Notes under the pieces: model-generated
What the model saw: only the letters and a program-made list of their open reading frames with translations
What the model was told of the DNA's origin: nothing
Databases searched by the model: none
Program-made: the position numbers and the translations under genes
DNA from: Lactobacillus sp.
GTDB lineage: Bacteria; Bacillota; Bacilli; Lactobacillales; Lactobacillaceae
DNA: 27,755 nt
NCBI RefSeq assembly: GCF_014803895.1
Contig: NZ_JAAVAU010000034.1
Location: 1 to 27,755 of the forward strand
Direction of reading: 5' to 3'
In this document: piece by piece, positions 2,228-20,931 of the stretch
Layout: each line of letters opens with the position of its first letter
Position numbering within the stretch: the stretch's first letter is position 1

Positions 2228-2707
2228 TTATTTATGATAAGGACTACCATTATTAATCATAAATGCTCGATATATTTGTTCTGTTAAAACTAAGCGCATT
2301 AGTTGATGGGGCATAGTAAATTTACCAAAACTAATCAAATCATCAGCTCGTTTATTCACAGCATCACTAGTACCTAAACTCCCACCAATTACAAAGGTAA
2401 TATCTGAATGTCCATAAGTTCCTAAATTTTGAATTTCTTTAGCAAATTCCTCGCTAGTTCTTTCTTTACCTTTAATTGCAGTTACGTAAACATATTCTTT
2501 GTCTTTAATTTTACTTAAAATTCTTTCTCCTTCAATCTCCTTTACCTTTTTCATTTCAGCTGGACTTAACTTTTCAGGAGCTTTTTCATCAGGAACTTGA
2601 ATTATTTTCATCTTGGCATAGCGATCCATTCTCTTCATATATTCTGCAATACCATCTTTAAAGTATTTTTCTTTTAATTTGCCTACACATACAATTTTTA
2701 TATTCAT
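2228..2707 (-). CDS. rlmH: 23S rRNA (pseudouridine1915-N3)-methyltransferase RlmH
   Basis: SPOUT-class methyltransferase that methylates pseudouridine 1915 in helix 69 of 23S rRNA on assembled 70S ribosomes, using S-adenosylmethionine. The 159-residue length equals the family norm. The trefoil-knot SAM site is seen as [15 protein letters not shown], and the C-terminus [23 protein letters not shown]...GSPYHK is the highly conserved family tail. GAGGGA lies just upstream of the ATG. In staphylococci this gene (orfX) is the integration site of SCC elements, and its last codons, TAT CAT AAA TAA, resemble that attachment core; here an ECF transporter gene, not a cassette, abuts them. It lies downstream of htrA on the same strand but is separated by a terminator and a 451-bp gap. 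Confidence 0.95.
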
Positions 2708-3027
2708 GATTCCCTCACTTAATTTTATTTATTTTCCATTTTAACTTGGTGAGCTGTGAAACGTCCAGACAATAAACCGAATTTTATACCCACAATATTT
2801 AGTTACAAAATTTAGTTACATACTATAAATTGTGGTTTAACTTGTGATTTATGTATTTTTTTATTAATTAATAAAAATCACAAAAATATCATTTGTGTTT
2901 TTGTGATTACTAACCATAAATAGCCTTTATACAAATAATTTACAGACAGATCTTTATATAATAAATAACATTATAGTCATATAAAGATAGATTTATCTTC
3001 ATTTTTGTAAAAGGCTTTCTTTACTAG

Positions 3028-3055
3028 TTATACACAATCCACAGAGTTATCCACA
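3028..3055 (+). promoter_or_regulatory. Pair of consensus DnaA boxes
   Basis: TTATACACA (3028-3036) and TTATCCACA (3047-3055) both match the TTATNCACA DnaA-box consensus, in the same orientation, 19 bp apart. Two single-mismatch candidates lie further left: TTATACCCA at 2784-2792 and TTATACAAA at 2927-2935. Binding by DnaA is inferred. Confidence 0.6.
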
Positions 3056-3123
3056 GAACTTTCTGCATTTGTATTCAATCAAAACACGAACTTTTATCTG
3101 TTTCACAAATTTAATATACAGAA

Positions 3124-3154
3124 AAAGGACTCATTTTATTTCAGTGAGTCCTTT
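3124..3154. terminator. Intrinsic terminator of htrA
   Basis: Perfect 10-bp stem AAAGGACTCA (3124-3133) and TGAGTCCTTT (3145-3154) with an 11-nt loop, starting 5 bases beyond the htrA stop codon. On the minus strand the stem runs into a T tract, as expected for a rho-independent terminator. Confidence 0.85.
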
Positions 3155-3158
3155 ATTT

Positions 3159-4373
3159 TTATTTACTCAATGTTACACTCAAATTCTTAGTTTTACCATC
3201 ACGAACTACTTGAACAGTTACATGATCTCCAATCTTATGAGCATATAAGACGGTATGTAATGACGCAAGATCTTTAATAGTCTTACCATCCACCTTAGTG
3301 ATGATATCTCCACTCTTCATGCCTGCTTTAGAAGCACTACTATTCTTAGTTACAGAAGCAACGTAAACACCAGATTTTACACTAGATGGCACATTCAATT
3401 GCTTCTTACTATAGTCAGTTAATTCACTAACTGAAGCTACACGAACACCTAATTGTGGTCGAGTAATTTTACCATTTTTCACTAACTCATTGATAATTGT
3501 TACAACTTCATCACTAGGAATAGCAAAACCCATTCCTTCAACACTAGTACCATCACTAGATTGTGAAAGCTTCATAGAGTTGATACCAATAACTTGTCCT
3601 GATTCATTTACCAATGGACCACCAGAGTTACCTGGGTTAATAGCCGCATCAGTTTGAATAACAGTAGCCTGGTTAGTTACTTGTCCTGAGGAATTTGTTA
3701 CATCAATCGTTCTACTCTTAGCAGAAATGATACCTTGAGTAACACTAGTAGCATATTGACTACCTAATGGTGAACCAACAGCAATTACTGATTGACCTGG
3801 TTCTACATTTTTAGAATTACCAAATTGTGCAGTTTGGGTTACATATTTACCATCAATAGTTAAAACAGCTAAGTCAGTTTCCGAGTCACTACCAACTTTT
3901 GTAGCTGTGACTTTTTTACCATTGCTTAGAATAACTTGAATTTCATCACTACCAGAAACAACGTGATTATTGGTTACAATATAGCCTTTACCATTAGATT
4001 TCATATAAATAACTCCAGAACCTTCACTATAAGTTTCTAGATTTGACTTAGAGTTACTTGATGAACTTGAAGAACTTTCATCAGAGTCACCAAAAATACC
4101 AAATAAATCACTTGATGAACTAGAGCTACTTTGTCTTTTTAAATTTACTACAGAAACAACAGAATTCTTAACCGCATTGAAAGCAGCAGTCATTTGACCA
4201 GAGCTTTTACTAGTATTTTTAACTGTTGTCACAGTTGGTGCAGCAGTTTGAGCACTATTTTGGCTTACTTGACTCATCCCAGCATAAGCAATTCCACCAC
4301 CTAAAAGTCCAGCAACAACACCAACAATTCCAGTCTTCAATAGAGTATTATTTTTCTTTTTGTTTTCAGTCAT
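3159..4373 (-). CDS. htrA: HtrA/DegP-type surface serine protease
   Basis: Membrane-anchored quality-control protease that degrades misfolded proteins at the cell surface. It has 404 residues: a short cytoplasmic N-terminus, one membrane segment (about 13-32, GIVGVVAGLLGGGIAYAG), a flexible linker with two seven-serine runs (near residues 82-88 and 100-106), an S1C trypsin-like domain and one C-terminal PDZ domain (from about residue 305). The catalytic triad is complete: His137 (TNNHVV), Asp167 (ETDLAV) and Ser250 (GNSGGP). It lies 108 bp downstream of walJ on the same strand, and that gap has a TGAAGA direct repeat, so it may have its own promoter as well as readthrough from the wal operon. 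The start ATG at 4373 follows GGGAAGAG. A terminator follows the gene. Confidence 0.95.
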   Translation of the reverse strand: MTENKKKNNTLLKTGIVGVVAGLLGGGIAYAGMSQVSQNSAQTAAPTVTTVKNTSKSSGQMTAAFNAVKNSVVSVVNLKRQSSSSSSSDLFGIFGDSDESSSSSSSNSKSNLETYSEGSGVIYMKSNGKGYIVTNNHVVSGSDEIQVILSNGKKVTATKVGSDSETDLAVLTIDGKYVTQTAQFGNSKNVEPGQSVIAVGSPLGSQYATSVTQGIISAKSRTIDVTNSSGQVTNQATVIQTDAAINPGNSGGPLVNESGQVIGINSMKLSQSSDGTSVEGMGFAIPSDEVVTIINELVKNGKITRPQLGVRVASVSELTDYSKKQLNVPSSVKSGVYVASVTKNSSASKAGMKSGDIITKVDGKTIKDLASLHTVLYAHKIGDHVTVQVVRDGKTKNLSVTLSK

Positions 4374-4449
4374 TTCTCTTCCCTTTCTTGCATTGGTCTA
4401 TATATATAAATGCATTATTTCTCACAATATCTATCATAAAAAGCAAATT

Positions 4450-4466
4450 TGAAGAAATTATGAAGA
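4450..4466. promoter_or_regulatory. TGAAGA direct repeat upstream of htrA, possible regulator site
   Basis: TGAAGA occurs at 4450-4455 and again at 4461-4466, an 11-bp period suited to tandem binding of an OmpR-family regulator on one face of the helix. The repeat is about 80 bp upstream of the htrA start. The same hexamer forms the arms of the palindromes at 17403 and 18127 in front of the two PepSY genes. A role is inferred only. Confidence 0.3.
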
Positions 4467-4481
4467 TTTATTTTTAAATTA

Positions 4482-5279
4482 CTAAATTTCCACCAAGTCG
4501 GTTGGCTTACTTGGAGCGGTATCATGAATTTGAACATCTCCTGGTAATTCTGCATCCCCATTAACCAAAATATCCCAAGCAGCTTCATGAGCTTTGTACT
4601 GGGTATTATTGTGCTGAGAACGATGAGCCAAAAAGATATTCTTGGTATTAGATTTCACTACGTCAAGTAAAGTCTCACCCGCTTGCTCATTCGATAAATG
4701 ACCTACATCAGACATAATCCGCTGCTTAAGTGACCACGAGTAGGGACCACGCCGCAACATCATATCATCATAATTAAACTCTATTAAATATCCATCTGCA
4801 GCTTCAATTTGGCTTTTAACATTATTTGAAACATAACCTGTATCAGTTAAACAAGCAAATCTCTTTCCTCCACTAGCAAAAACATAATATTGTGGTTCAG
4901 CTGCATCATGACTAGTAGCAAAGCTTGTTACTTCCAAATCACCAAAAATTTTTGTCTTTCCCGATTCAAAAGTATTAATTTGATCTATTGGCAATTGTCC
5001 AATTTTATTACTATCAATCAAATATTGCCAAGTCCCTGCATTTGCAAAGGCATTAATTTGAGAATAACGTCGCATCAAAACTCCTAAGCCACCTGAATGA
5101 TCTGTATGATCATGACTTAAAAAAACCATATCAATATCTTTGATATCCACACCAACATTGGATAAAAGAGTTTTAGTTTTTTTACCAGATATTCCAGCAT
5201 CCATTAATACATTATGTTGCGGAGTTTGAATTAAAGTTATATTCCCCGAGGATCCACTCGCTAATACAGATACTTTCAC
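4482..5279 (-). CDS. walJ: WalJ (YycJ) metallo-beta-lactamase-fold nuclease
   Basis: Metallo-beta-lactamase-fold hydrolase of the YycJ/WalJ group, a cytoplasmic DNA exonuclease-like protein encoded in WalRK operons. The metal site His56-x-His58-x-Asp60-His61 (SHDHTDHSGG) is intact, and further His/Asp ligands follow (TSHDAAE, LTDTGYVS, VGHLSNEQ). I place the start at GTG 5279, giving KVSVLASGSSGN at the N-terminus as in homologues; its AAGGGG ribosome site overlaps the yycI stop codon. A GTG three codons further upstream (5288) is in frame but would lie inside that ribosome site. About 265 residues, the family's usual size. Last gene of the walR-walK-yycH-yycI-walJ operon. Confidence 0.9.
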   Translation of the reverse strand: MKVSVLASGSSGNITLIQTPQHNVLMDAGISGKKTKTLLSNVGVDIKDIDMVFLSHDHTDHSGGLGVLMRRYSQINAFANAGTWQYLIDSNKIGQLPIDQINTFESGKTKIFGDLEVTSFATSHDAAEPQYYVFASGGKRFACLTDTGYVSNNVKSQIEAADGYLIEFNYDDMMLRRGPYSWSLKQRIMSDVGHLSNEQAGETLLDVVKSNTKNIFLAHRSQHNNTQYKAHEAAWDILVNGDAELPGDVQIHDTAPSKPTDLVEI

Positions 5280-5291
5280 AAAAATCACCCC

Positions 5292-6137
5292 TTAATCCTT
5301 AACTTCATCATCATTTTTTTCTTCAGAGGTAGTCTGTGGTTGAATAATTGTACTAGTAAAAGCATTTACACGTTTTACAGTCACTGTCTTTGAAGTATTA
5401 TTTTCTATAGCTACTAACCATGACGGTAAAAAAATCACGCTTCCTCGAACTTGAGTTAGTTTAGTATAACCATATTTGATCCAAATCACTTTAGAATTAT
5501 TCGGCAATTCACTGTAAGTATAAAGAGAATTAATTGCTTCTTTAGCACTAATAGTCGTTTGACGTTCTCTTACTGTAGAAACTTTATCAGTATAACGCTG
5601 GTAATAAGAGACAATTTTATTATCCTTTACCGTAATATGTAATCGTGCTCTCGTTGAATAAATTAAGCCATACGGCGTTTTTTGTAAGAAAATATAATCA
5701 TTATTTTCAGATAACTCTGGTGAATAAACATATTCATCACCTTTATAAACATTTTTAGCATTGTTTTTAAAATTATTTAAATCTTTGATAGCTTTTTTCT
5801 TATCTGAACTAATTGCTACTGGATTATTAAGTGTTGCACTTACACTACTTTCGGTACTTGATGTTGTCACCGTCATCTGATCACCAACTTGACTTTGGGC
5901 TTTATTAATCCAAGTTTTATCAACTTTTGCAGCTAAATAATAACCATCCGATTCTTTATTACTAACATGAGGAATTTTAATATTATCCGCAGCCATTTCT
6001 TGTTGTAAATTATCTCCACTCGTAGTAGTCGTATTACTAGAAAGTAACGTAGGAATTTGGATAATTTCTATTCCTAGAAAAATATTAATTCCAATAAAAA
6101 CAATTAGAAATATCCATTGGATTCGTTTAAAGTCCAT
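5292..6137 (-). CDS. yycI: WalK regulatory protein YycI
   Basis: Single-pass membrane protein that, with YycH, binds WalK near the membrane and modulates its activity. The 281 residues show a short cytoplasmic N-terminus, one membrane helix (about residues 8-28, IQWIFLIVFIGINIFLGIEII), a poorly conserved extracellular part and the YycH/YycI fold in the C-terminal half (QKTPYGLIYSTRARLHITVKDNKIVSYYQRY). The tail is acidic (EEKNDDEVKD). The start ATG lies 11 bases inside the end of yycH, showing translational coupling. Sequence conservation in this family is low; the call relies on operon position together with topology and size. Confidence 0.88.
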   Translation of the reverse strand: MDFKRIQWIFLIVFIGINIFLGIEIIQIPTLLSSNTTTTSGDNLQQEMAADNIKIPHVSNKESDGYYLAAKVDKTWINKAQSQVGDQMTVTTSSTESSVSATLNNPVAISSDKKKAIKDLNNFKNNAKNVYKGDEYVYSPELSENNDYIFLQKTPYGLIYSTRARLHITVKDNKIVSYYQRYTDKVSTVRERQTTISAKEAINSLYTYSELPNNSKVIWIKYGYTKLTQVRGSVIFLPSWLVAIENNTSKTVTVKRVNAFTSTIIQPQTTSEEKNDDEVKD

Positions 6138-7479
6138 CCTCTAATCCCTCCTTAGACTCTGATTTAGCCTGAGCACTTGAACCATTAAGAGGTGAAGCAT
6201 CAATCCACTCTTTTAGTGACCGCCACTTTCCTTTAATTTTGGCATAATACGTTGGTTTTAAGTCCACTAATCGAGAACTGCTGTCACTATCAGCTTTTAC
6301 AGTATAACCAACAATTATTCGACTGATATCTTTTTTGGCATAGCCGCTTTCAATCAAACTATTAAGCGCAACTTTAGTTGCTGGTAATGTAGTTTTTGAA
6401 CCATTACTTGGAATTGGAATTTGCAAGTTTAAACTATTGAAGTTAATTTTCAAGCCACTTTTAGCAAACTTAATTTGGGCTCGTGTATTATAATTTCCTG
6501 GGAAAAAGACAGGATATTCTTCCACAAAGCTTTGATAAATCATTGTGTTGTTATCTGCATCAAAAAAGTGCAAATCTGGTTCACTTAAGCCAATTTTTCT
6601 AATATAAGATAAACTACTGCTTAGTTTTTTAGTAACTGATGTTGGTAGTTTATTTTCATTATAATTTACGTATTCATAATTATGACTCTTTTTAGCCGCA
6701 ATTAATCGTTCATAAACTCCATTAGAATAAGTTATTGATGCTGAACTATTACGTTGATTAATTGAACCTGTTCCAAGTAAACGATAAACAAAGTATGAAT
6801 CCGATTCTTGATCAGTCAAATAGCTATAATTAGGTAATTGTGTTTCTTTTTCATAAAAAGGTAAATAAGCATCACTTAATCGATGTAAGGCAACTGGAAC
6901 TTGAGATTTAGCTTTCCTAATCTGCTTATAAAATTTATCAAATTTAACTTTACCTATTGCTACTTTATATACTGTATAATCTTTGTCATTTCCTAAGTAA
7001 AGGTATTTCTCAGTGGTATCGACCGGCACAAAAATACGATTGAACTCACCATTATTCGCTTTTTTTAGCTTAGTAAGAAAAAGCGAAATAGTAATTTGAT
7101 CTGGGTAAGTAAGCTGAATATAACTTTGATTTTTAAGTAAATTATTATAATAAGTTTTATCTTTAGTTACTTTAATAGGTGTATTTTTTTCTAATGGTTG
7201 AGTCATCTTAGAAAACTGCAAGGGCAAATTTACTTGGCCTGCATAAACTTGATACAGTTGACTATTACGATAGTAAAAAAGTTTTGTAGGTATATAAATT
7301 TCACGTAAAGATTTTTGCCCTACATCTTTTTTGGTGGGAGACTGATTAGATGTTTGTTCAATTCGAGAAAAACGCGAATCAGATCCCCAAATATATGCTG
7401 ATAATCCTATTGAAGTAAGTACCATTAGAATCAAACCAACAGTAAGACAAATATTACCTAGCTTATGTTTAAATTTCAT
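6127..7479 (-). CDS. yycH: WalK regulatory protein YycH
   Basis: Membrane-anchored partner of YycI and WalK in control of cell-wall turnover. I start it at ATG 7479, preceded by an AAGGAG ribosome site, giving 450 residues beginning MKFKHKLGN. The frame stays open upstream to 7575, but those 32 codons lie within walK in another frame and do not resemble a signal. One membrane helix is visible (about residues 10-28, CLTVGLILMVLTSIGLSAYIW); the rest is extracellular. The gene overlaps walK by 11 bases and yycI by 11 bases, so the operon is translated in a coupled manner. The C-terminal tail is charged (KSESKEGLEDGL). Confidence 0.88.
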   Translation of the reverse strand: MKFKHKLGNICLTVGLILMVLTSIGLSAYIWGSDSRFSRIEQTSNQSPTKKDVGQKSLREIYIPTKLFYYRNSQLYQVYAGQVNLPLQFSKMTQPLEKNTPIKVTKDKTYYNNLLKNQSYIQLTYPDQITISLFLTKLKKANNGEFNRIFVPVDTTEKYLYLGNDKDYTVYKVAIGKVKFDKFYKQIRKAKSQVPVALHRLSDAYLPFYEKETQLPNYSYLTDQESDSYFVYRLLGTGSINQRNSSASITYSNGVYERLIAAKKSHNYEYVNYNENKLPTSVTKKLSSSLSYIRKIGLSEPDLHFFDADNNTMIYQSFVEEYPVFFPGNYNTRAQIKFAKSGLKINFNSLNLQIPIPSNGSKTTLPATKVALNSLIESGYAKKDISRIIVGYTVKADSDSSSRLVDLKPTYYAKIKGKWRSLKEWIDASPLNGSSAQAKSESKEGLEDGL

Positions 7480-9325
7480 CCCAACTAGCTCCTTCCTCAG
7501 ATATTGGTTCAAACGGTAAGGAAATATAGAAGGTTGACCCCTTACCCTCTGCACTATCAGCCCAGATTCGACCATGGTGTTCTTCTACAATTTCTTTAGA
7601 AATTGCTAACCCTAATCCAGTTCCTCCTTGCTTACGAGAACGGGCTTTATCAACACGGTAGAAGCGATCAAAAATTTTATTTAAATCTTTTCTTGGGATA
7701 CCTAATCCCTGATCGGAAATACTTAAAATGATGTGCTTATGTGATTGTAATAAGCGTACTGTAATCACTCCACCATCTGGTGAATACTTGATAGCATTAT
7801 TCATAATATTATCAATTACTTGCATCATCTTATCAGTATCTATTTCTACCCATAGATCCTGCTTCGTAAATTCTCGCTTAATAGAATACTTCTTTACCTT
7901 ATTTTTATTCTTTTCAGCATCATTTTTAATCATCATGTCAAAACGATTTAGAATATGATTAACAAAGTCAGTAATATTAACCCATTCAAGATCCATTTTA
8001 GCTACACCACGATCCATTCGTGATAAATTTAATAAATCATTGATCATTCGAATCATACGTTCTGTTTCATCCTGAACAACCCCTAAAAATTGAGGTGCAA
8101 TATTGGGATCCTGCCAAGCCCCATCATTTAAGGCTTCCACATAAGCTCGCATACTTGTGAGTGGCGTTCTCAATTCGTGTGACACATTAGAAACAAATTG
8201 TTGCTGCTCACGTTCATTTTTCTGTTGTTCAGTAATATCATGTAACACACACACAAGCCCAGATACAAAGCCAGTAATTCTTTGAATCAACGAAAAGTTA
8301 GCATGTAAAATCATCTCGTCATGCGTACCGACATTCACCGGTACAATTAATTCTTGTTGAGTACTCATTAAGTCTTGAATCGTTACATCTTCTAGACCTA
8401 ATAACTTCGTTATTGGACGGCCAATAACCTCATCTTCTTTTTTACCTAAAAAATCTAAGGCCGTTTCATTGATAATTGTAATATTACCGTGACGATCAGT
8501 AGCAATAACACCATCAGTCATGTGTGTTAATACATTATCTAATCGTCGCCTCTCACCATCAGAAATTTCTTGAGTACGTTCTATTCTTACTGATAACGTA
8601 TTAAATGCTTTAGCCAACTGCCCTAACTCATCATCAGCATAAATATTCACGTGTCCTGAGTAATCCCCATCCGAAATCCTAATCGCTTGCCCAGTCATTT
8701 CCTCAATTGGTCTCGTTATTGCCCGAGAAATAAATATCGAAACAACAGCTCCTAAAAGCGCAGCAATCAATGAAGCAGTTAAAAACATTATCGATATATT
8801 ACGAATATTGTTAAAAACACTCTGCATACTAGCACGAATAGAAATTGCACCAATGGTAGTATTAGTTCCATTTCCTAAAGTAAGTGGCGTTACCTGTACC
8901 ATGTAATTACCATTATCATTAACAACTTTAGAAACTTGGCGCCCACTAGAAATTACTTTTTTAATATCAGAACTTGTATCGCGTTGACCTACTCGAGCTT
9001 GATCATTAACATTTGAAACTGCTCGAATAACACCTTTATTATCAACAATTGTAATTTGATTAATTGCATCATTACTGTAATTAGCCACAATTTTATTTAA
9101 TTGTCGATTAGCACTTTGGGTGTTTGTTCGACTTAATTGCTCAGAAATTTGATTAGTAATAATATTTGGTATCTGAATAGATGTTTCAAAATTTCGAATC
9201 GAACTTTGTTCTAATTGCCTTGTAAAATAAGCACCAACAATTTCAATTGTTGCTAACAAAAGCAACATAAAGATCAATGCAATTTTAAAATTAATTGATG
9301 TAAAAATTCTCTTTATCTTTTTCAC
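7469..9325 (-). CDS. walK: Sensor histidine kinase WalK (YycG/VicK)
   Basis: Essential sensor kinase of cell-wall homeostasis; it phosphorylates WalR. With the start at GTG 9325 it has 618 residues: membrane helix 1 (about 14-34), an extracellular sensor domain, helix 2 (about 175-197), HAMP, a PAS domain (about 255-365, DGVIATDRHGNITIINETALDFLG), a HisKA domain with phospho-acceptor His383 (NVSHELRTP) and an HATPase domain with N box (NIMNNAIKYS) and glycine boxes (DQGLGI, GGTGLGLAI). An in-frame GTG at 9358 would extend it by 11 codons, but these sit in a perfect hairpin with no ribosome site, so I prefer 9325. Its own ribosome site (GGGTAAG) is weak, suggesting modest translation relative to walR. 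Confidence 0.93.
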   Translation of the reverse strand: MKKIKRIFTSINFKIALIFMLLLLATIEIVGAYFTRQLEQSSIRNFETSIQIPNIITNQISEQLSRTNTQSANRQLNKIVANYSNDAINQITIVDNKGVIRAVSNVNDQARVGQRDTSSDIKKVISSGRQVSKVVNDNGNYMVQVTPLTLGNGTNTTIGAISIRASMQSVFNNIRNISIMFLTASLIAALLGAVVSIFISRAITRPIEEMTGQAIRISDGDYSGHVNIYADDELGQLAKAFNTLSVRIERTQEISDGERRRLDNVLTHMTDGVIATDRHGNITIINETALDFLGKKEDEVIGRPITKLLGLEDVTIQDLMSTQQELIVPVNVGTHDEMILHANFSLIQRITGFVSGLVCVLHDITEQQKNEREQQQFVSNVSHELRTPLTSMRAYVEALNDGAWQDPNIAPQFLGVVQDETERMIRMINDLLNLSRMDRGVAKMDLEWVNITDFVNHILNRFDMMIKNDAEKNKNKVKKYSIKREFTKQDLWVEIDTDKMMQVIDNIMNNAIKYSPDGGVITVRLLQSHKHIILSISDQGLGIPRKDLNKIFDRFYRVDKARSRKQGGTGLGLAISKEIVEEHHGRIWADSAEGKGSTFYISLPFEPISEEGASWDEI

Positions 9326-9345
9326 ATTACTTACCCATACAAAAT

Positions 9346-9367
9346 AAGGCCACTTCACGGTGGCCTT
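9346..9367. promoter_or_regulatory. Hairpin between walR and walK, possible attenuator
   Basis: Perfect 8-bp stem AAGGCCAC (9346-9353) / GTGGCCTT (9360-9367) with a 6-nt loop lies between the walR stop and the likely walK start. On the mRNA it is followed by ATTTTGT, too short a U run for a strong terminator. It could stabilise walR mRNA or partly terminate transcription to favour regulator over kinase. Confidence 0.55.
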
Positions 9368-9371
9368 TCAT

Positions 9372-10079
9372 TTACTCATCAGATGGATCTTTGACGTAGT
9401 ATCCAACACCACGTCTCGTTACCAAAATAGTTGGTGAAGATGGATTATCTTCAATCTTTTCGCGTAAACGTCTCACTGTCACATCAACAGTTCTTACGTC
9501 ACCAAAATAATCATAACCCCAAACAGTTTGAAGCAAGTGCTCACGAGTCATCACTTGTCCCATATGCTGGGCCAAATAATGTAGCAATTCAAATTCACGG
9601 TGTGTTAATTCAATTTTTTCACCATTCTTTTCTACAATATAAGCCTCTGGCATAATAACTAAATTACCAATTGAGATATTTTTATTTTCTTCATCATCAT
9701 TAGCTTTTTGGCTAATATCACGACGACGTAAATTAGCTTTTACACGTGCTACCAATTCTCGATTAGAAAAAGGCTTAGTTACATAATCATCGGCACCCAT
9801 CTCAAGCCCTAAAACTTTATCGATTTCAGTGTCTTTAGCTGTCACCATAATAATTGGCATATCGTGAGTTTTTCGTACCTCACGTGCTACTTCCAAGCCA
9901 TCTTTTTTGGGTAGCATCAAATCTAAAATCATTAAATCTGGATTATATTCGTCTACTTTTTCAACAGCCTCTTCACCATCATAAGCTGTCTCAACATCAT
10001 ATCCTTCTTTAGTAAGGTTAAACTTAATGATATCCGAGATTGGTTTCTCATCATCTACCACTAAAATCTTTTTCGGCAT
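9372..10079 (-). CDS. walR: Response regulator WalR (YycF/VicR)
   Basis: Essential OmpR/PhoB-family regulator controlling peptidoglycan hydrolases and wall metabolism. The 235 residues comprise an N-terminal receiver domain (acidic pocket Asp9/Asp10, phospho-acceptor Asp53 in MILDLMLP, conserved Thr in VTAKD, Lys in VTKPF) and a C-terminal winged-helix domain ([16 protein letters not shown] ... [12 protein letters not shown] ... RRGVGYYV). The recognition-helix region matches the WalR type. The ATG follows a strong GAGGAGG ribosome site. It is the first gene of the operon and is preceded by a good promoter on the minus strand. Length and motifs are fully typical. Confidence 0.96.
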
Positions 10080-10214: not shown

Positions 10215-10287
10215 GGGTGGTTAGCTCAGCTGGCAGAGCAACGGACTCTTAATCCGTGGGTCCAGGGTTCGATCCCCTGACCACCCA
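10215..10287 (+). tRNA. tRNA-Lys (anticodon CTT)
   Basis: A complete 73-nt cloverleaf: acceptor stem GGGTGGT / ACCACCC, D arm GCTC...GAGC, anticodon stem ACGGA / TCCGT with loop CTCTTAA (anticodon CTT at 10248-10250, reading AAG), T arm CAGGG TTCGATC CCCTG and discriminator A. The 3' CCA is not encoded, so it must be added after transcription. The gene stands alone between the divergent walR operon and the LCP gene, with its own terminator. Confidence 0.97.
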
Positions 10288-15572: not shown

Positions 15573-16432
15573 TAATTGGTGGAGACAGATTTAAAGTAAT
15601 TGAAAATATTAAAAAAAATATTCAAAATAAAGCTTTTCATGCTAAAGCCGAAATTGGCGATCCCATTTTAAGCCAAGAAAAAAGCAAACAATTAGTAGAA
15701 CATTTTTGGAAAGATAGTAAAAAATATTCCCATAAACTAGTAAATCTTTTTACTCGCGGGGCTTTTGACTTAGGAGCTCTTATCCTTACTTTAGGAGATA
15801 AGATTGATTCTACAAAGAACATTAAACATATCCCTAGTGCGATTATAACCTCCAACCATTATAATCAATTTGATAGCTTACCAATTAAAAAATTAGCCCT
15901 AAAAGCACATAAGCGTCTTTTTATTATCGTAGAAGATACTAATCTACTTTTACCAGGATGGATTGGGTTCATGATGAAAAATATCGATAGTATTCCCTTA
16001 AGTAATAGCGTACGATATCTAGGACGTGAATTTCCAAAACATTTATCAAATGCTTTTGCCAAAAAAAGCTGGGTTCTTATTTATCCTGAACAAGAGATGT
16101 GGTTCAATTATCGTAAACCACGCCCTGTTCAAAAGGGAGCCTACTACTACGCTGCAAAATTAAATGTACCTATTATTTCCTGCTTTGTGGAACTTCAAGA
16201 TAAATCAAGTTATGAAAAAAATCATCCTGAATTCCATAAAACTCGTCGTATTCTCCACGTTTTGCCTACAATTTATCCAGACCCTAATTTAAGTGTTGAC
16301 GAAAATGCACGTAGAATGCGCGATATTGATTATTCACAAAAGAAAAAAGCTTATGAACAAGCATACAATAAAAAGCTTGACTATACTTTTTCTTACGATG
16401 ATATCGCTGGATTTATTCCTAAAAACAGATAA
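15569..16432 (+). CDS. PlsC-like acyltransferase, second copy
   Basis: Second acyltransferase of the operon, 287 residues. It has the canonical block I NHYNQFD (His97-x4-Asp102), block III LIYPEQEMWFNYRKPRPVQ and the acceptor-lining KGAYYYAAKLNVPII. The N-terminal 80 residues are charged with one moderately hydrophobic stretch (LVNLFTRGAFDLGALILTLG). Start ATG 15569 overlaps the GT8 stop as ATGA and has AAGGAG upstream. A strong terminator begins in its stop codon. Two acyltransferases flanking two GT8 enzymes suggest assembly of a diacylated glycolipid or an acyl-decorated glycan; this is inference. Confidence 0.86.
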   Translation: MIIGGDRFKVIENIKKNIQNKAFHAKAEIGDPILSQEKSKQLVEHFWKDSKKYSHKLVNLFTRGAFDLGALILTLGDKIDSTKNIKHIPSAIITSNHYNQFDSLPIKKLALKAHKRLFIIVEDTNLLLPGWIGFMMKNIDSIPLSNSVRYLGREFPKHLSNAFAKKSWVLIYPEQEMWFNYRKPRPVQKGAYYYAAKLNVPIISCFVELQDKSSYEKNHPEFHKTRRILHVLPTIYPDPNLSVDENARRMRDIDYSQKKKAYEQAYNKKLDYTFSYDDIAGFIPKNR

Positions 16433-16466
16433 AAAGTGTATCCCTAAAATTGGGATACACTTTTTT
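16431..16466. terminator. Bidirectional terminator between acyltransferase and PepSY gene
   Basis: A 14-bp perfect stem AAAAAGTGTATCCC (16431-16444) / GGGATACACTTTTT (16452-16465) with a 7-nt loop. It has T tracts on both strands and overlaps both stop codons, so it can serve both convergent genes. Confidence 0.95.
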
Positions 16467-17304
16467 AGTCCTTATCATTATTTGTATCTTTTTCTACCTT
16501 AATTACTTCTTTAGTTATAGCATTAATTTCTACTTCAGTTTCAGTAGAGTTATTCAATAATTCTACTGACCAAATCCATTTTCCATCTTCTTTTTCTAAT
16601 TTACTTTCTACCACCGTTCCACTAGCATTCTTTTGTGCAATTTCAATTGCTTCTGTTGCCTTAATTACATTGCTAGAAACACTAGTATATCTTTCTTTTT
16701 TACTTTTATCACCATGTCTTGAATCTTTATCTTTTAATTTATCCTTTTTAGTACTTAAAACTTTCTTACTTGCGGCATCAATCTCTACCTTAGTTTTATT
16801 AGAACCATCTACTAATTCTACATTCCAAATAGCTTTGCCATCTTCAGTTTCTAAAGTCCATTCAACTGCAGTTCCACTAGCATTTTTTTGTGCAATTTCA
16901 CTAGCTTCATCGCGACTGATTAACTTACTTAAATCTAAGGCCACATTTTTATCATCTTTATCTAAATTTTCACTTCTTGAAGTTAAAACCTTACCCGTTT
17001 CTGCATCTACATCTACACGGTATTCTTTACTTGAGTCAAATCCTTCAATAGTATAAACATAAGTACCACGGTGAGCTTCTAATTCAATTGACTCAATTGA
17101 TTTATTACCATATTTTTCAGTAAACTTTTCAATAGCTTGTTGTTGAGTAATTTTAATCTTAGAAGTACTTACTTTACTTTTAGTAACTTGAGTAGAACTA
17201 TCTGATGCATTAACATAGTTATTCGCTACTACAGTTGTACCTCCAACAGCTAATCCTAAAACTGCAGCGGCAAGTGATAGTTTCTTTAAATTAATAGTTT
17301 TCAT
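16465..17304 (-). CDS. Secreted PepSY-domain protein with three repeats
   Basis: Exported protein of unknown job, 279 residues. A Sec signal peptide is clear (MKTINLKKLSLAAAVLGLAVGG, cleavage probably after the Ala in NYVNA). Three PepSY-like units follow, at about residues 52-117, 131-197 and 217-275. Each pairs a helix (AIEIAQKNASG) with a beta hairpin (GKAIWNVELV) and a VEIDA..KKV-type last strand. Units 2 and 3 are very similar and spaced 85 codons apart, pointing to an internal duplication. The linker between them is rich in Lys and Asp. AAGGA precedes the ATG. PepSY domains are proposed to inhibit or modulate peptidases in the envelope; no partner is shown here. The neighbouring two-component system and shared operator suggest co-regulation with the next gene. 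Confidence 0.85.
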   Translation of the reverse strand: MKTINLKKLSLAAAVLGLAVGGTTVVANNYVNASDSSTQVTKSKVSTSKIKITQQQAIEKFTEKYGNKSIESIELEAHRGTYVYTIEGFDSSKEYRVDVDAETGKVLTSRSENLDKDDKNVALDLSKLISRDEASEIAQKNASGTAVEWTLETEDGKAIWNVELVDGSNKTKVEIDAASKKVLSTKKDKLKDKDSRHGDKSKKERYTSVSSNVIKATEAIEIAQKNASGTVVESKLEKEDGKWIWSVELLNNSTETEVEINAITKEVIKVEKDTNNDKD

Positions 17305-17355
17305 AAATTAATCCTTCTTTCGTCTAAACATTTATCTCGTTCAATTTATATATTT

Positions 17356-17361
17356 AGTTTA
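17356..17361 (-). promoter_or_regulatory. Putative -10 box of the three-repeat PepSY gene
   Basis: TAAACT on the minus strand occupies the same place, 42 bp from the palindrome, as the perfect TATAAT before the second PepSY gene. No good -35 box is present, in keeping with an activator-dependent promoter. Confidence 0.4.
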
Positions 17362-17402
17362 CGAAAAAAGTAGCTTTTAAAAACCAAAATTAGATGTAAA
17401 TC

Positions 17403-17422
17403 AAATGAAGATTTCTTCATTT
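17403..17422. promoter_or_regulatory. 20-bp palindromic operator, copy 1
   Basis: AAATGAAGATTTCTTCATTT is a perfect inverted repeat (9-bp arms, TT centre) 98 bp upstream of the PepSY start at 17304. A second identical copy lies at 18127-18146 in front of the paralogous gene. It is probably the site of an OmpR-family regulator; the regulator encoded at 19495-20196 is the obvious candidate. Confidence 0.6.
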
Positions 17423-17434
17423 TTAATCTCTAAA

Positions 17435-17468
17435 AAAATAACACCCTCTAACTCAAGGGTGTTATTTT
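17435..17468 (-). terminator. Terminator of the two-repeat PepSY gene
   Basis: A 13-bp stem AAAATAACACCCT (17435-17447) / AGGGTGTTATTTT (17456-17468) with an 8-nt loop, followed on the minus strand by a T run, directly after the stop codon of the gene at 17471. Confidence 0.9.
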
Positions 17469-17470
17469 GT

Positions 17471-18025
17471 CTAGTTATCTTTCTCTACACTAATTACCTT
17501 TTTGGTTAATGTATTAATTTCTACTTCAGTACCGTTAACAAATTCTACTACCCAAACAGATTTACCATTTTCTTTTTCTAAAGTCCATTTCACAGCCTTA
17601 CCACTTGCATGCTTTTTTGCAATCTTAGTCGCACTAGACCGACTAATTGCCTTCTTTAAATTAACCGCACTCTTGTGATCGGTAGTATCTAATTTTTCAC
17701 TCTTTGAGCTAATAATTTTACCCGTTTTAGCATTAATCTTAACTTCATATTCTTTAGTTTTATCAAAGCCATCAACGATATAAACATATTTATTTCCACT
17801 TGGCTTCAAACTAATTGATTCAATAGATTTATTACCAAACTTTTGAGTAAATTTCTTTACAGCCTGAGTTCTAGTAAGTTTTATTTGGGAAGTACTTGTG
17901 GCTGCTTGGACAATTGTAGTTCCAGACGTACTTTTTAAACTTCCAATTGTAATTGCACTTCCACCTACTGCTAAACCTAAAATTGCTACAGTTGCAGATA
18001 ATTTCTTGTTAATATTCTTGAACAT
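17471..18025 (-). CDS. Secreted PepSY-domain protein with two repeats
   Basis: Exported protein of 184 residues, paralogue of the neighbour at 16465. The signal peptide (NKKLSATVAILGLAVGGSA, cleavage probably at VQA-A) shares the core LGLAVGG with it. Two PepSY units follow, about residues 48-113 (TQKFGNKSIESISLK...YVYIVDGFDKTKEYEVKINAKTGKII) and 125-183 (ISRSSATKIAKKHASGKAVKWTLEKENGKSVWVVEFVNGTEVEINTLTKKVISVE, given here as the extent only). It is strongly basic in charge. A GAGG ribosome site precedes the ATG. Its promoter region matches that of the neighbour at 45 of 52 positions by hand count. Function unknown; an envelope role as sensor accessory or peptidase modulator is inference. Confidence 0.85.
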   Translation of the reverse strand: MFKNINKKLSATVAILGLAVGGSAITIGSLKSTSGTTIVQAATSTSQIKLTRTQAVKKFTQKFGNKSIESISLKPSGNKYVYIVDGFDKTKEYEVKINAKTGKIISSKSEKLDTTDHKSAVNLKKAISRSSATKIAKKHASGKAVKWTLEKENGKSVWVVEFVNGTEVEINTLTKKVISVEKDN

Positions 18026-18079
18026 AATTCTTTATACCTCTTTTTATATTCTAATTCGTCTCACTTAATTTCTATATTT

Positions 18080-18085
18080 ATTATA
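18080..18085 (-). promoter_or_regulatory. -10 box of the two-repeat PepSY gene
   Basis: A perfect TATAAT on the minus strand, 42 bp downstream of the palindrome and about 55 bp ahead of the start codon. No matching -35 box at 17 bp; the place is taken by a conserved CTTTTAAAA block shared with the paralogue. Confidence 0.5.
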
Positions 18086-18126
18086 CGAGGAAACTAACTT
18101 TTAAAAGTCAAAATTATATATAGATT

Positions 18127-18146
18127 AAATGAAGATTTCTTCATTT
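18127..18146. promoter_or_regulatory. 20-bp palindromic operator, copy 2
   Basis: Identical to copy 1 at 17403-17422. It lies 101 bp upstream of the PepSY start at 18025 and overlaps the last codons and stop of the sensor kinase gene (TGA at 18141-18143). It is centred about 63 bp before the predicted transcription start. Confidence 0.6.
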
Positions 18147-19502
18147 TTCGTAAGGAAGATAAATAGTAAAGATCATGCCGTTAGGGTGATTGGCGCTAAG
18201 TTTGATTTGTCCATGATATTCATCTACTACTTTTTTTACAATTGCTAACCCTAAACCAGTACCCGAAATTTTATTAGAATGTGCTTGATCCTCACGGAAA
18301 AAACGATCAAAAATTTTATTATAATTTTCTTTTTTAATACCTTGCCCTTCGTCTTTTACCTTCAAGACTAAACCTTTATTTTTAGATTTTAAACTTAAAA
18401 ATATTGGTGTACCTTTTTGAGAATATTTTGCTGCATTTTCTAATAAATTATGGATTAAATGACGAAAATCAGTTAATTTAATTGCATAAAATAACTCATT
18501 AGGCGACTTCAATTGGACGTGACGATGAAATTCTTGCCATATTAATTCACATTCATTCTTTATTACTCCTACTAAATCAATTTTTTCAATTGCTGCAGAT
18601 TTCCCTTGTCCTCGCCCTAACTCAAGCAATTCATTAACTAATTCCTGCATTCTCAAGGATTCTGAATCAATATACTCAAGTGACTTATCTATAATTTCAG
18701 GATTACTTTTTCCTCGCCTTTTAATAAGACCTACATGGCCTCGAATAGCTGCTATAGGTGTTTTTAATTCATGCGAAGCATCTGTTACAAATTGATGTTC
18801 TCTTTGCATTGCTTGGTATTGCGAATCCAGCAAACTATTAAAAGATTGAGCCAGATGTTTAATTTCTACTGGTTGCTGAGGAACTGAAATAGTTTTATTT
18901 TGACTTTTATTATTATTTTGAATTTGAAGAATTTCATGATCCATTTTTTCTAAAGAAAAACTCCACTTTTTAGCAAATCTTCTTATCAGAGGAATACAAA
19001 GCAAAATGGCTCCTAAATTCAAAACAATCATTGTAATGAGTAACTGAATAACAAGCTGAAAGAGACCATCAACATTTAAGGCAACTGTTACCTTATATCC
19101 CCATACATTAGACTGTTCTAAATAATAAACACTCCTTGAGGCAAAAAAAACATTATTGTAATGACGACTGGTATCTACTTTTTTAAAAAGTTTGTCCCCA
19201 TCCTCAGAATAAAAAGTTTTTTCTTTGGGCGTCACAATTTTAATTGCATCATCATCCTGACGGGCAATATAGGCATCTAACAAAGTATCCCATTTAATAT
19301 TATCGTGATCGTGATGTCCACGCTCTTCAACATTATCTTTAACATTTTCAATTAATTCATGAGCTTGCTTTTGGGCAGTTTGATAAACAAAAATCGTTGA
19401 AATAATAACAAATGCTAAATTTACAATAAACAAAATTGCGATAAATAATTTTAAAAACAAACTTGTTAATTGCTGAGCAGTGGTCCTAGTTTTTTTAGTC
19501 AT
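18141..19502 (-). CDS. Sensor histidine kinase of the PepSY-linked two-component system
   Basis: Membrane kinase of 453 residues from ATG 19502 (a TTG three codons upstream is possible but badly placed). Domains: helix 1 (about 12-35), an extracellular loop of about 110 residues rich in His and Asp (ERGHHDHDNIKW), helix 2 (about 149-171), a HAMP-like linker, HisKA with phospho-acceptor His244 (DASHELKTPIAAIRGHV) and HATPase with LLENAAKYSQ, DEGQGI and GTGLGLAIVKK. It overlaps the regulator gene by 8 bases. There is no PAS domain, unlike WalK. The HHDHD cluster could bind a metal; this is speculation. The general type is ArlS/YkoH-like by resemblance. The signal is unknown; flanking PepSY proteins suggest an envelope cue. 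Confidence 0.9.
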   Translation of the reverse strand: MTKKTRTTAQQLTSLFLKLFIAILFIVNLAFVIISTIFVYQTAQKQAHELIENVKDNVEERGHHDHDNIKWDTLLDAYIARQDDDAIKIVTPKEKTFYSEDGDKLFKKVDTSRHYNNVFFASRSVYYLEQSNVWGYKVTVALNVDGLFQLVIQLLITMIVLNLGAILLCIPLIRRFAKKWSFSLEKMDHEILQIQNNNKSQNKTISVPQQPVEIKHLAQSFNSLLDSQYQAMQREHQFVTDASHELKTPIAAIRGHVGLIKRRGKSNPEIIDKSLEYIDSESLRMQELVNELLELGRGQGKSAAIEKIDLVGVIKNECELIWQEFHRHVQLKSPNELFYAIKLTDFRHLIHNLLENAAKYSQKGTPIFLSLKSKNKGLVLKVKDEGQGIKKENYNKIFDRFFREDQAHSNKISGTGLGLAIVKKVVDEYHGQIKLSANHPNGMIFTIYLPYEK

Positions 19503-20196
19503 CCAAATCAAGCTTTCTTAGACAATAACCGTAGCCACGAATAGTTTTTATTAAATCACGGTATAATCCGAGTTTATTTCTTAAGGTTCTAATATAAACA
19601 TCAACAGTATTAGTTTGTCCCACAAAGTCATACCCCCAGACTACATCTAACAATTCATCCCTACTTTTAACTTTTTCTGGATCTTTCATCAACTCTGCCA
19701 TTAAAGCAAACTCTTTGGGAGTAAGATAGATATTTTCCTCCCCACATTCAAACTTATGATTAACCAAATCAAGCTTTAATACACTAAACCTCAAAACATT
19801 TGTAACCGTATTTTCACGTTTCTTCTCTTTTTCAAGACGACGCAAAACTACTCGAATTCGTGCAAATAATTCCTCTATTTCAAAAGGCTTAGTCATATAA
19901 TCATCTAATCCTTGATCAAGCGCATTACTGATATCACTCGCCTGATTTTTAGCCGTCAACATGATAATCGGTACATCACTTTTTTTACGAATTCTTCTCA
20001 ATACCGTTAAACCATCGTATACAGGTAACATCCAGTCAAGTAAGATAAGAGTTGGTTTGTCTTTCTCAAACATTTCTAAAGCTTCTTGACCATTTTGGGC
20101 CCAAATTACTTGATAACCTTCTAATTCCAATTCAGTTTGTATAAAACTTGCTAAGCTTTCTTCATCTTCTACTAATAAAATCTTGATATTATCCAT
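19495..20196 (-). CDS. OmpR-family response regulator of the PepSY-linked system
   Basis: Cytoplasmic DNA-binding regulator, 233 residues. The receiver domain has acidic residues at 10-12, phospho-acceptor Asp54 (LILLDWMLP), conserved Thr (MLTAKN) and Lys (MTKPFE). The winged-helix domain is seen as YLTPKEFALMAELMKDPEKVKSRDELL and DVYIRTLRNKLG...TIRGYGYCL. The receiver resembles ArlR and YkoG types. It is the first gene of a regulator-kinase pair and has a purine-rich AAAGGA ribosome site (as minus strand) close to the ATG. A terminator separates it from the PepSY lipoprotein gene upstream; some readthrough may occur. Its likely targets include the two palindrome-bearing PepSY promoters downstream. 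Confidence 0.93.
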   Translation of the reverse strand: MDNIKILLVEDEESLASFIQTELELEGYQVIWAQNGQEALEMFEKDKPTLILLDWMLPVYDGLTVLRRIRKKSDVPIIMLTAKNQASDISNALDQGLDDYMTKPFEIEELFARIRVVLRRLEKEKKRENTVTNVLRFSVLKLDLVNHKFECGEENIYLTPKEFALMAELMKDPEKVKSRDELLDVVWGYDFVGQTNTVDVYIRTLRNKLGLYRDLIKTIRGYGYCLRKLDLDD

Positions 20197-20235
20197 AAGT
20201 TAGTCCTTTAGTAATTATTATTATCTTAACTATAC

Positions 20236-20262
20236 TAAAAAAGCAGCCCGAAGGGACTGCTA
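20236..20262 (-). terminator. Terminator of the PepSY lipoprotein gene
   Basis: On the minus strand AGCAG-T-CCC / GGG-CTGCT pairs with one bulged T and a TTC loop, followed by TTTTTT. It separates the PepSY lipoprotein gene from the regulator gene. Confidence 0.8.
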
Positions 20263-20274
20263 ATTATTTAACTT

Positions 20275-20931
20275 TTAATTATCATGCTCGCTAGTAAGGA
20301 CCTTCTTATTAATTGCATCAATCTTAACCTCAGTCCTGTGGATGCCAGATTCAACAGTAATATCCCACTCTGGACGACCAGTATTTTCATCCATTTCAAG
20401 ATCCCATTCAATAGCACTACCACTGCCAACATGCTTTTCAGCAAGTTTACCCGCTTCAGAACGGCTAATTACTTTAGAAAGATCCAAGCCTTTTTGATTA
20501 TGTTCATCTGAATCTAAGGCTTCAGACTTAGAATTAATTTCCTTACCAGTTACAGCGTCAATTGTTAGTTCATGTTCCTTCTTGGAATCAAAACCATCGA
20601 TTGAATAGACATAAGCTGAACCACTAAGTTTTAAATCAATGCTCTTTATTTTACTATCGGCAAACTTCTTATTAAACATATCAACTGCCTCAGATTGGCT
20701 CACTTTAATAGTAGCACTTTCTTTTTTAGCAGTTGATTCATTTACTGAAGAGGACGAGGAGGAACTTGAACTACTACTTTCTGAACTAGATTTACTTGAG
20801 TTAGATTTTGTAGATGATTGGCTAGAAGTTGAATTAGTGTTATTAGAACTACATGCCACAGTTCCCATAACCAAAGCAGCCCCAAGAGCTACCCCACTTA
20901 AAAGTTTTACCCACTTTGTATTTTTAGACAT
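20275..20931 (-). CDS. PepSY-domain lipoprotein
   Basis: Probable surface lipoprotein, 218 residues. The signal peptide ends in GTVAC, so Cys27 is the likely lipidated residue (the -3 residue is Thr, not the preferred Leu). A serine-rich tether occupies about residues 28-62, followed by two PepSY units (about 70-137, with YVYSIDGFDSKKEHELTIDA, and 150-217, with EAGKLAEKHVGSGSAIEWDL). AAAGGAA precedes the ATG. It stands directly before the two-component genes and faces a small membrane protein gene on the other strand. Unlike its two secreted paralogues it lacks the 20-bp palindrome upstream, so it may be expressed differently, perhaps acting as the constitutive sensor partner. That role is inference. 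Confidence 0.87.
   Translation of the reverse strand: MSKNTKWVKLLSGVALGAALVMGTVACSSNNTNSTSSQSSTKSNSSKSSSESSSSSSSSSSSVNESTAKKESATIKVSQSEAVDMFNKKFADSKIKSIDLKLSGSAYVYSIDGFDSKKEHELTIDAVTGKEINSKSEALDSDEHNQKGLDLSKVISRSEAGKLAEKHVGSGSAIEWDLEMDENTGRPEWDITVESGIHRTEVKIDAINKKVLTSEHDN

Follow-up and report, generated by a model that had tools for sequence, protein, structure and literature searches.

A conserved operator accompanies a two-component system with secreted PepSY genes in Lactobacillus

A stretch of 27,755 nucleotides from Lactobacillus sp. (contig NZ_JAAVAU010000034.1), referred to here as the window, is best explained as holding a compact signalling module: a response regulator (RR) gene, the gene of a sensor histidine kinase (HK), and two genes for secreted PepSY proteins, both with an operator of their own. 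Comparison of genomes shows a conserved operator that goes with the kinase–regulator pair, and we think it quite likely that the regulator activates the secreted PepSY genes as its main conserved output, with feedback on the kinase as a further possibility. Modules that join a two-component system (TCS) to PepSY genes are a known type and are widespread in bacteria, but it is understood in few cases why a PepSY gene accompanies the kinase. The DNA studied here offers a testable answer, namely that the PepSY gene would be the regulator's most conserved target and, in Lactobacillus, nearly its only strong one. Among the open-licence papers listed on PepSY proteins with TCSs, lactobacilli, enterococci, YkoGHI, DbfQ or UipA, we found no description of the operator. 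The circuit is small, consisting of an operator, a regulator and one or two secreted proteins, and in it PepSY proteins acting as feedback can be distinguished from PepSY proteins acting as effectors.

The module and its operator-promoters

The original prediction of a regulator–kinase pair flanked by three PepSY genes, one for a lipoprotein and two for secreted proteins, was borne out by the open reading frames and Pfam domains (Table 1). The regulator has the receiver and winged-helix domains of an OmpR/PhoB response regulator, a gene for a PepSY-only protein lies within four genes of an HK or RR gene, as in DbfQRS-like modules, and the PepSY proteins have signal-like N-termini (read by eye only). 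Rfam yields one match in the window, to a tRNA (10215-10287), and a known RNA element was rejected as an explanation.

Table 1. Features of the TCS-PepSY locus in the window
Feature	Position	Strand	Basis
OmpR/PhoB-type response regulator (RR) gene	19495..20196	-	Pfam Response_reg + Trans_reg_C
Sensor histidine kinase (HK) gene, outer domain ~115 residues	18141..19511	-	Pfam HisKA + HATPase_c
Secreted PepSY gene, 184 aa, 2 PepSY stretches, operator upstream	17471..18025	-	Pfam
Secreted PepSY paralogue, 279 aa, 3 PepSY stretches, operator upstream	16465..17304	-	Pfam
PepSY lipoprotein gene, 2 PepSY stretches, without operator	20275..20931	-	Pfam; operator model
Operator core, 279-aa PepSY gene; 9-bp arms around TT	17403..17422	-	Motif search
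Operator core, 184-aa PepSY gene; overlaps kinase stop codon	18127..18146	-	Motif search
Operator-promoter, 279-aa PepSY gene	17348..17423	-	Model R1, 64.3 bits; site is an R1 training row
Direct half-sites and -10 box, 279-aa PepSY gene	17405-17411, 17394-17400, 17383-17389; -10 box 17356-17361	-	Half-site register; coordinates read from sequence
Operator-promoter, 184-aa PepSY gene	18072..18147	-	Model R1, 55.2 bits (18073-18147); site is an R1 training row
Direct half-sites and -10 box, 184-aa PepSY gene	18129-18135, 18118-18124, 18107-18113; -10 box 18080-18085	-	Half-site register; coordinates read from sequence
Likely terminator of 184-aa PepSY gene, between both secreted genes	17434..17470	-	Read from sequence; absent from hairpin scan
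Terminator-like hairpin behind 279-aa PepSY gene	16431..16465	-	Hairpin scan
Terminator-like hairpin between lipoprotein and regulator genes	20242..20261	-	Hairpin scan

The 20-mer core, AAATGAAGATTTCTTCATTT, occurs at the two places given in Table 1 and, as had been claimed, solely before the two secreted PepSY genes, no third site being found in the whole window with up to 3 mismatches; shuffled controls gave a mean of 0.05 matches, and none of 100 reached 4. It had been described as a perfect palindrome lying 42 bp from the -10 box, and both statements need correction: the 9-bp arms are perfect around a central TT, which leaves 2 mismatches against its own reverse complement, and the distance is 41 bp at both genes. 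The count of 45 identical positions in the paired 52-bp promoter block was correct, and outside the block identity is 9/25 upstream and 17/23, then 18/30, downstream.

The operator exceeds the palindrome, in that an inverted half-site is followed by direct half-sites (TYTTCAT-like) at 11-bp spacing, the last of which extends to the -35 position. Direct half-sites with this period, upstream of the -10 box and replacing a consensus -35, are the mark of an OmpR/PhoB-type activator operator, and neither window promoter was listed by a consensus promoter scan. Half-site identity is 0.60 at offset 11 and 0.54 at offset 22, against 0.37, and offset 28 likewise scores 0.55, which we counted against the main explanation. 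The strict core retrieved 46 promoters of PepSY genes (39 unique) and 24 of regulator genes (21 unique), and the core lies 43 bp from the -10 box in 31 of 39 promoters and 42 bp in 4. The operator has a PhoB-type activator layout. In the pho box of PhoB, 7-bp direct half-sites with 4-bp spacers give an 11-bp period and replace the -35; the layout is alike, whereas the half-site sequence differs and the operator described here has an extra inverted half.

Distribution of the operator across genomes

Kinase relatives were found through an alignment, an earlier contig scan with the kinase alone having given none, and the kinase is present in 15 of 75 Lactobacillus genomes, in 16 copies. Model R1 of the operator-promoter, which has 16 training rows, 9 of them from Lactobacillus genomes then searched, gave 17 strong matches (48.9-66 bits; 8 of them not training rows, and just two of these, that of G018 and the one at the kinase of G029, clearly unlike a training row), all within the 15 kinase genomes. 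There is one for each kinase copy and one before a broken PepSY gene; in each genome, nearly the only strong match is at the PepSY gene behind the kinase. The next best match scores 19.3 bits, in a kinase genome, and the best among the other 60 genomes 18.3 bits, with 64 first-look candidates scored per genome under filters stricter than those of the corresponding scan with model R2. Two kinase genomes (G004 and G018) escape a strict core search with one mismatch. G006 and G029 have a broken secreted gene behind an intact operator, which was counted against the main explanation.

In one Enterococcus genus the kinase is found in 14 of 22 genomes, with a PepSY gene behind it in all 14, and the core occurs twice at every one of the 14 kinase loci, before the regulator gene and before the PepSY gene, the copy before the regulator gene being a second, diverged operator. 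R2 (13 rows, all from genomes searched, as are most rows of the two models together; 150 first-look candidates per genome) has its strongest match behind the kinase in 14/14 kinase genomes (32.6-58.5 bits; 13 of the 14 kinase sites are training sites and G706 was held out), and its best in the 8 others is 20.8 bits. On the enterococcal regulator-gene sites R2 gives at most about 18 bits, like background; because of this, and because a limited number of candidates was scored per genome, weak or diverged targets would escape detection. For E. ureilyticus, the 16-mer core with one mismatch is at chance level (14 versus 14 control sites per strand), and the only two exact matches are both TCS sites. 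Two enterococci have an extra site before a VTC-domain gene cluster, at 23.9 bits in one, and this too was counted against the main explanation.

A third genus has the kinase in 8 of 50 genomes and the core behind it in 6 of the 8. A search for conserved TCS-PepSY clusters in relatives had been suggested, and the layout does recur outside Lactobacillus, with a PepSY gene within 2.5 kb of the kinase in 23 of 79 loci and not in 56. Even at kinases of only about 50% identity, and in other genera, the core is retained; around more distant relatives in the kinase family (31-38% identity), neither PepSY nor core lay within 1.5 kb at any of the 21 loci viewed. One genome, G464, keeps kinase and PepSY with the operator absent, a further point against the main explanation. 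Of the compared loci, most in one set and 13 of 20 in another were picked for carrying the motif, and the unbiased counts are those of the kinase searches.

An order scan found 71 matches, spread over 46 of 395 genomes, and its reversed control 8. With G044, G155 and G183 excluded from the 46, the match lies at a TCS-PepSY locus in 33 of 43 genomes examined and away from such loci in 10. In two of these genomes (G703, G595) the core falls within a long reading frame; in G768 it precedes a VTC-domain cluster, and the remaining off-locus matches are those in G643, G485, G668, G634, G597, G601 and G783.

Regulator, output and feedback

The cis evidence for control of the PepSY genes by the cognate regulator is strong, and the phosphorylated regulator would very likely bind the operator and activate transcription. 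There is strong support for the earlier claim that regulator binding is under selection, as the site tracks the kinase, a second copy precedes the enterococcal regulator gene and the half-sites are phased at 11 bp. Since the 279-aa and 184-aa secreted proteins are paralogous (51% identity over 188 residues) and the likeness of their promoters runs beyond the core, the shared block might be a mere trace of recent gene duplication without selection, but retention of the core at about 50% kinase identity and in other genera, together with the nearly fixed spacing to the -10 box, makes this extremely improbable, and cross-genus conservation rules out recent duplication as the source of the likeness. 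Symmetric cores with 9-bp arms are also typical of one-component dimeric regulators, and the core found here could on that ground be the site of a different transcription factor found alongside the module. We regard this as highly unlikely: the site follows the kinase–regulator pair (15/15 versus 0/60 genomes), enterococcal copies precede the regulator gene itself, direct half-sites at 11-bp spacing are as expected for an OmpR/PhoB protein, and the response regulator is the sole regulator family in all 21 loci compared.

The exported PepSY proteins are likely to be the main conserved output of the regulator and not one of many targets. This is suggested by the operator before the PepSY gene being nearly the sole strong genomic match in Lactobacillus, though our confidence is reduced because R2 scores the regulator-gene sites of enterococci no higher than background and would therefore miss diverged targets. 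By analogy with DbfQ acting on DbfS, there is perhaps an even chance that the PepSY proteins also bind the outer domain of the kinase and turn it down. An AlphaFold2 model of the kinase (pLDDT 78, pTM 0.37) has a mixed alpha-beta stretch between two long N-terminal helices, and an outer domain is also supported by a hydropathy segment; the 50 Foldseek matches listed for the model were mostly kinase cytoplasmic cores and not informative on the sensor fold. Opposite charges of kinase sensor and PepSY protein were considered as a clue to binding and rejected, for the charges run in the same direction (r = 0.77 over 23 loci), a trend that is not specific, the kinase cytoplasmic part giving 0.72. 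Our guess for the kinase signal would be envelope damage or a cationic ligand.

It is possible, if doubtful, that the PepSY proteins are purely effectors that bind metal or cationic peptides, or inhibit an extracellular protease, without acting on the kinase. A system with PepSY as its main conserved target needs some PepSY function besides feedback, the PepSY proteins of enterococcal-type loci are acidic, and uranyl is bound by a negatively charged face of UipA, which has tandem PepSY domains and is encoded next to a TCS (PMC8963506). However, at seven Lactobacillus loci the operator-proximal PepSY protein is not acidic (charge -1 to +12 over the last 125 residues), DbfQ is a precedent for direct kinase control (PMC12714742), and no conserved peptidase family was found beside PepSY. 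The proposed envelope peptidase partner is likewise not supported, no peptidase appearing among those families in at least 3 of 21 representative loci that were typed. Kinase, regulator and PepSY are the only families in all 21, and the next commonest, an ABC ATPase typed from one member and found in 13, may represent chance paralogues.

The earlier proposal that lipoprotein, secreted PepSY proteins and kinase form one feedback complex we consider unlikely. It would agree with the L. hamsteri-type lineage, where the lipoprotein gene lies directly after the secreted one and the two proteins are oppositely charged, and with G006 and G029, which keep a whole lipoprotein gene along with the operator despite the broken secreted gene. 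In the window, however, R1 finds no site at the lipoprotein gene, which looks a separate unit with a terminator before the regulator gene, and in 4 genomes that lack the kinase a PepSY lipoprotein gene has the same neighbours on either side. Membership of the operator circuit is thus not supported in the window, and the lipoprotein is probably a resident neighbour there. Both secreted versions in the window look free and not lipid-anchored, which could allow their release from the producing cell; a nearly single-output TCS whose secreted PepSY would be both product and signal, binding the kinases of neighbours for population-level quenching or sensing, is an idea that we hold to be decidedly unlikely.

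Comparison with known systems

In Escherichia coli the exported protein CpxP inhibits the kinase CpxA and is a strong target of the cognate regulator; it differs in not being a PepSY protein, and the Cpx regulon is broad. For Vibrio cholerae, one report describes binding of DbfQ to the DbfS sensor domain, a dbfQRS promoter that responds to pathway state, and PepSY-TCS neighbourhoods across bacterial phyla (PMC12714742). In both DbfQRS and the window, a gene next to an HK-RR pair encodes an exported PepSY protein, putatively so in the window, but in DbfQRS the PepSY gene comes first, has a predicted transcript in common with the TCS and encodes a periplasmic protein with one PepSY domain (PMC12714742), whereas the window has genes for multi-domain secreted PepSY proteins, each with an operator-promoter of its own and located behind the kinase gene, in hosts that lack an outer membrane. 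In DbfQRS, PepSY has been shown to bind the kinase (PMC12714742); in the window module such binding is putative. The UipRS-UipA system of Microbacterium also has a tandem-PepSY protein adjoining a TCS; UipA differs in being single-pass transmembrane and uranyl-binding, and an involvement of the TCS in sensing uranium is described as still putative (PMC8963506).

The order regulator–kinase–PepSY was also found in Bacillales loci, often with an 11-bp direct-repeat site before the PepSY gene. It is the gene order of YkoGHI in Bacillus subtilis, which was compared by gene order alone, and the Lactobacillales operator differs from such loci in its added inverted half-site. YkoGH is described as a TCS regulating LTA glycosylation and was tested as a putative peptidoglycan sensor (PMC8776889). 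Among Bacillales-dominated relatives the 11-bp direct repeat precedes 21 of 28 PepSY genes, the pattern having been written after viewing eight of its promoters and the expected value taken from first-order random sequences; among promoters unseen when the pattern was written, it is found in 14 of 20.

Operators in front of the secreted PepSY genes

Each of the two secreted PepSY genes of the window is preceded by the same 20-mer, and the rest of the window has no further copy, even when up to 3 mismatches are allowed. Described in the original prediction as a perfect palindrome, it is instead a pair of perfect 9-bp arms around TT, and its distance to the -10 box, read off the sequence, is 41 bp in both promoters and not 42 bp. 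The claimed identity of 45 out of 52 positions in the shared promoter block was confirmed, with 9/25 identical positions upstream of the block and 17/23, then 18/30, downstream.

PepSY and two-component system (TCS) features of the window, forward-strand coordinates
Feature	Position	Strand	Remark
PepSY lipoprotein	20275-20931	minus	export signal judged by eye
OmpR/PhoB-type regulator	19495-20196	minus	
Sensor kinase	18141-19511	minus	
Secreted PepSY protein, two-domain	17471-18025	minus	export signal judged by eye
Secreted PepSY protein, three-domain	16465-17304	minus	export signal judged by eye
20-mer	18127-18146		before a secreted PepSY gene
20-mer	17403-17422		before a secreted PepSY gene

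Among 39 unique PepSY promoters, the 7-mer of the right half-site, TYTTCAT, recurs at offsets of 11 (identity 0.60) and 22 (0.54) against a background of 0.37, and a T-rich stretch at offset 28 also reaches 0.55. The spacing between the 16-mer core and the best -10 hexamer is 43 bp in 31 of the 39 promoters and 42 bp in 4, and the third half-site falls approximately where a -35 box would be; a scan for consensus promoters listed neither of the window promoters. The layout is that of a PhoB-type activator, with the difference that the operator here has an extra inverted half-site. In 21 loci, mostly from Bacillales relatives, a direct repeat of the kind TCTCAT-N5-TCTAAT precedes 21 of the 28 PepSY genes and 1 of the 20 regulator genes, where 0.045 would be expected over all 48 genes; eight of these promoters had been inspected when the pattern was drawn up, and the remaining 20 PepSY genes give 14 matches. 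Most likely, the phosphorylated regulator binds the phased half-sites and activates the PepSY promoters.

Distribution of the operator across genomes

The kinase is found in 15 of 75 Lactobacillus genomes, in 16 copies, and a locus related to that of the window was located in Lactobacillus hamsteri (genome G001), with the same core overlapping the kinase stop codon. A strict search for the core (at most 1 mismatch) matched 14 genomes, namely 13 with the kinase and also G035, whose match falls within a reading frame, at a locus with neither kinase nor PepSY; the two kinase genomes it missed, G018 and G004, have more diverged cores. We also applied a 76-position model of the whole operator-promoter (R1, 16 rows), scoring 64 candidates per genome under stricter filters. 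It gave 17 matches of 48.9-66 bits, every one within the 15 kinase genomes. The next match anywhere scores 19.3 bits, and the 60 genomes without the kinase reach 18.3 bits at most. As 9 of the rows come from the genomes searched, matches there are expected, and it is the absence elsewhere that is informative. Applied to the window, R1 picks out the two sites, which score 64.3 and 55.2 bits and are both training rows, along with their own reverse strands, and otherwise nothing above 14.5 bits. Genome G070 has two copies of the module (C1 and C9; L115, L116), and each copy has a separate operator.

In the genus of Enterococcus ureilyticus (locus L002, genome G448) the kinase occurs in 14 of 22 genomes, and all 14 loci, G661 included, carry a PepSY gene and two cores; one core precedes the regulator gene and the other lies between the kinase and PepSY genes. 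A model of the enterococcal PepSY sites (R2) scores highest behind the kinase in each of these 14 genomes (32.6-58.5 bits), compared to at most 20.8 bits in the 8 other genomes; its 13 rows all come from genomes searched, and the held-out G706 scores 32.6 bits. A third genus, to which G417 led, has the kinase in 8 of 50 genomes, and at 6 of these loci the core follows it. The site is missing from G464, whose PepSY gene begins immediately after the kinase stop, and G466 has a shorter kinase, with no site or PepSY gene found. Among relative loci outside Lactobacillus, PepSY lies within 2.5 kb of the kinase in 23 of 79 and not in the other 56. More distant kinases of the same family (31-38% identity) served as a control, and all 21 of their loci viewed lack PepSY and core within 1.5 kb. 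Scanning the order with a pattern yielded 71 matches, spread over 46 of 395 genomes, compared to 8 for the reversed control pattern; a match was at a TCS-PepSY locus in 33 of 43 genomes examined and not in 10.

Since the strongest site in each scanned kinase genome is that of a PepSY gene, the regulator probably has PepSY as its main conserved output. R2, however, scores the enterococcal regulator-gene sites, at which the regulator probably acts on its own promoter as well, no higher than background (about 15-18 bits for those listed), and real but diverged targets can therefore escape such a scan; for this reason we regard PepSY as main output as moderately likely, and hold the explanation as a whole, drawn from sequence comparison, with moderate confidence. 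Some results go against it. One is that the secreted PepSY gene is broken behind an intact operator, with the downstream lipoprotein gene whole, in G006 (L125:6112-6656) and G029 (L122 near 6700-6930). Another is an operator-like site before a VTC-domain gene in two enterococci, G732 and G768 (L197:4882-5702, L219:4858-5678), in a cluster that carries its own regulator; the site is possibly a second target or belongs to a related regulator. Each of the 16 kinase copies is followed by one of the 17 R1 matches; the remaining match, in G029 (L123:6661-7466), is a full operator-promoter at a distance from the kinase, in front of a broken PepSY gene that may be a decayed member of the regulon.

Module membership and the lipoprotein

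Kinase, regulator and PepSY are the sole families present in all 21 representative loci, the next, an ABC ATPase (typed from one member), being in 13. The lipoprotein of the window had been proposed as part of the circuit, which is not borne out: the R1 scan of the window finds no operator at its gene, a terminator-like hairpin stands between it and the regulator gene, and a PepSY lipoprotein occupies this place in four genomes lacking the kinase. Four of 12 further Lactobacillus PepSY loci (L276, L277, L278, L282), all from such genomes, have a PepSY lipoprotein with the flanks that it has in the window, a PlsC-like gene to one side and the genes of a small membrane protein and a hydrolase to the other, but lack the block of regulator, kinase and secreted PepSY genes. 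For this reason the window lipoprotein looks like a resident neighbour. The other 8 have different neighbours, mostly still near the hydrolase gene. The block itself (16433-20274) looks like a cassette, present or absent between the PlsC-like gene and the lipoprotein. In the L. hamsteri-type lineage, the lipoprotein gene comes immediately after the secreted gene, and the two may share one transcript; there the secreted PepSY is basic and the lipoprotein PepSY acidic.

Possible roles of the PepSY proteins

A further result against the explanation is that the net charges of kinase sensor and PepSY run in the same direction (r = 0.77 over 23 loci including the window, uncorrected for kinship); in the 14 loci that belong neither to Lactobacillus nor to the third genus the correlation is 0.70, compared to 0.16 for the kinase cytoplasmic part. 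Over all 23 loci, however, PepSY charge also correlates with the cytoplasmic part (0.72) and the regulator (0.51), so the trend is not specific over all loci. A PepSY protein of Vibrio cholerae, DbfQ, binds the DbfS sensor domain with a Kd of 30 nM, and the authors of that study inferred that binding biases DbfS toward phosphatase activity (PMC12714742). By analogy, the secreted PepSY proteins may turn the kinase down. A loop without other output would be useless, so they probably act outside as well, for example by binding metal or cationic peptides, much as UipA binds uranyl (PMC8963506).

TCS-PepSY modules are already known; within the open-licence literature, judged from listings apart from the papers cited here, we found no description of the operator, its nearly single-target distribution or its reach from Lactobacillus to Enterococcus. 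Elsewhere in the window, the sole Rfam match is a tRNA gene (10215-10287, plus strand), and the stretch 2228-10079 contains a second regulator-kinase pair followed by genes that we take to resemble yycH, yycI, yycJ, htrA and rlmH.
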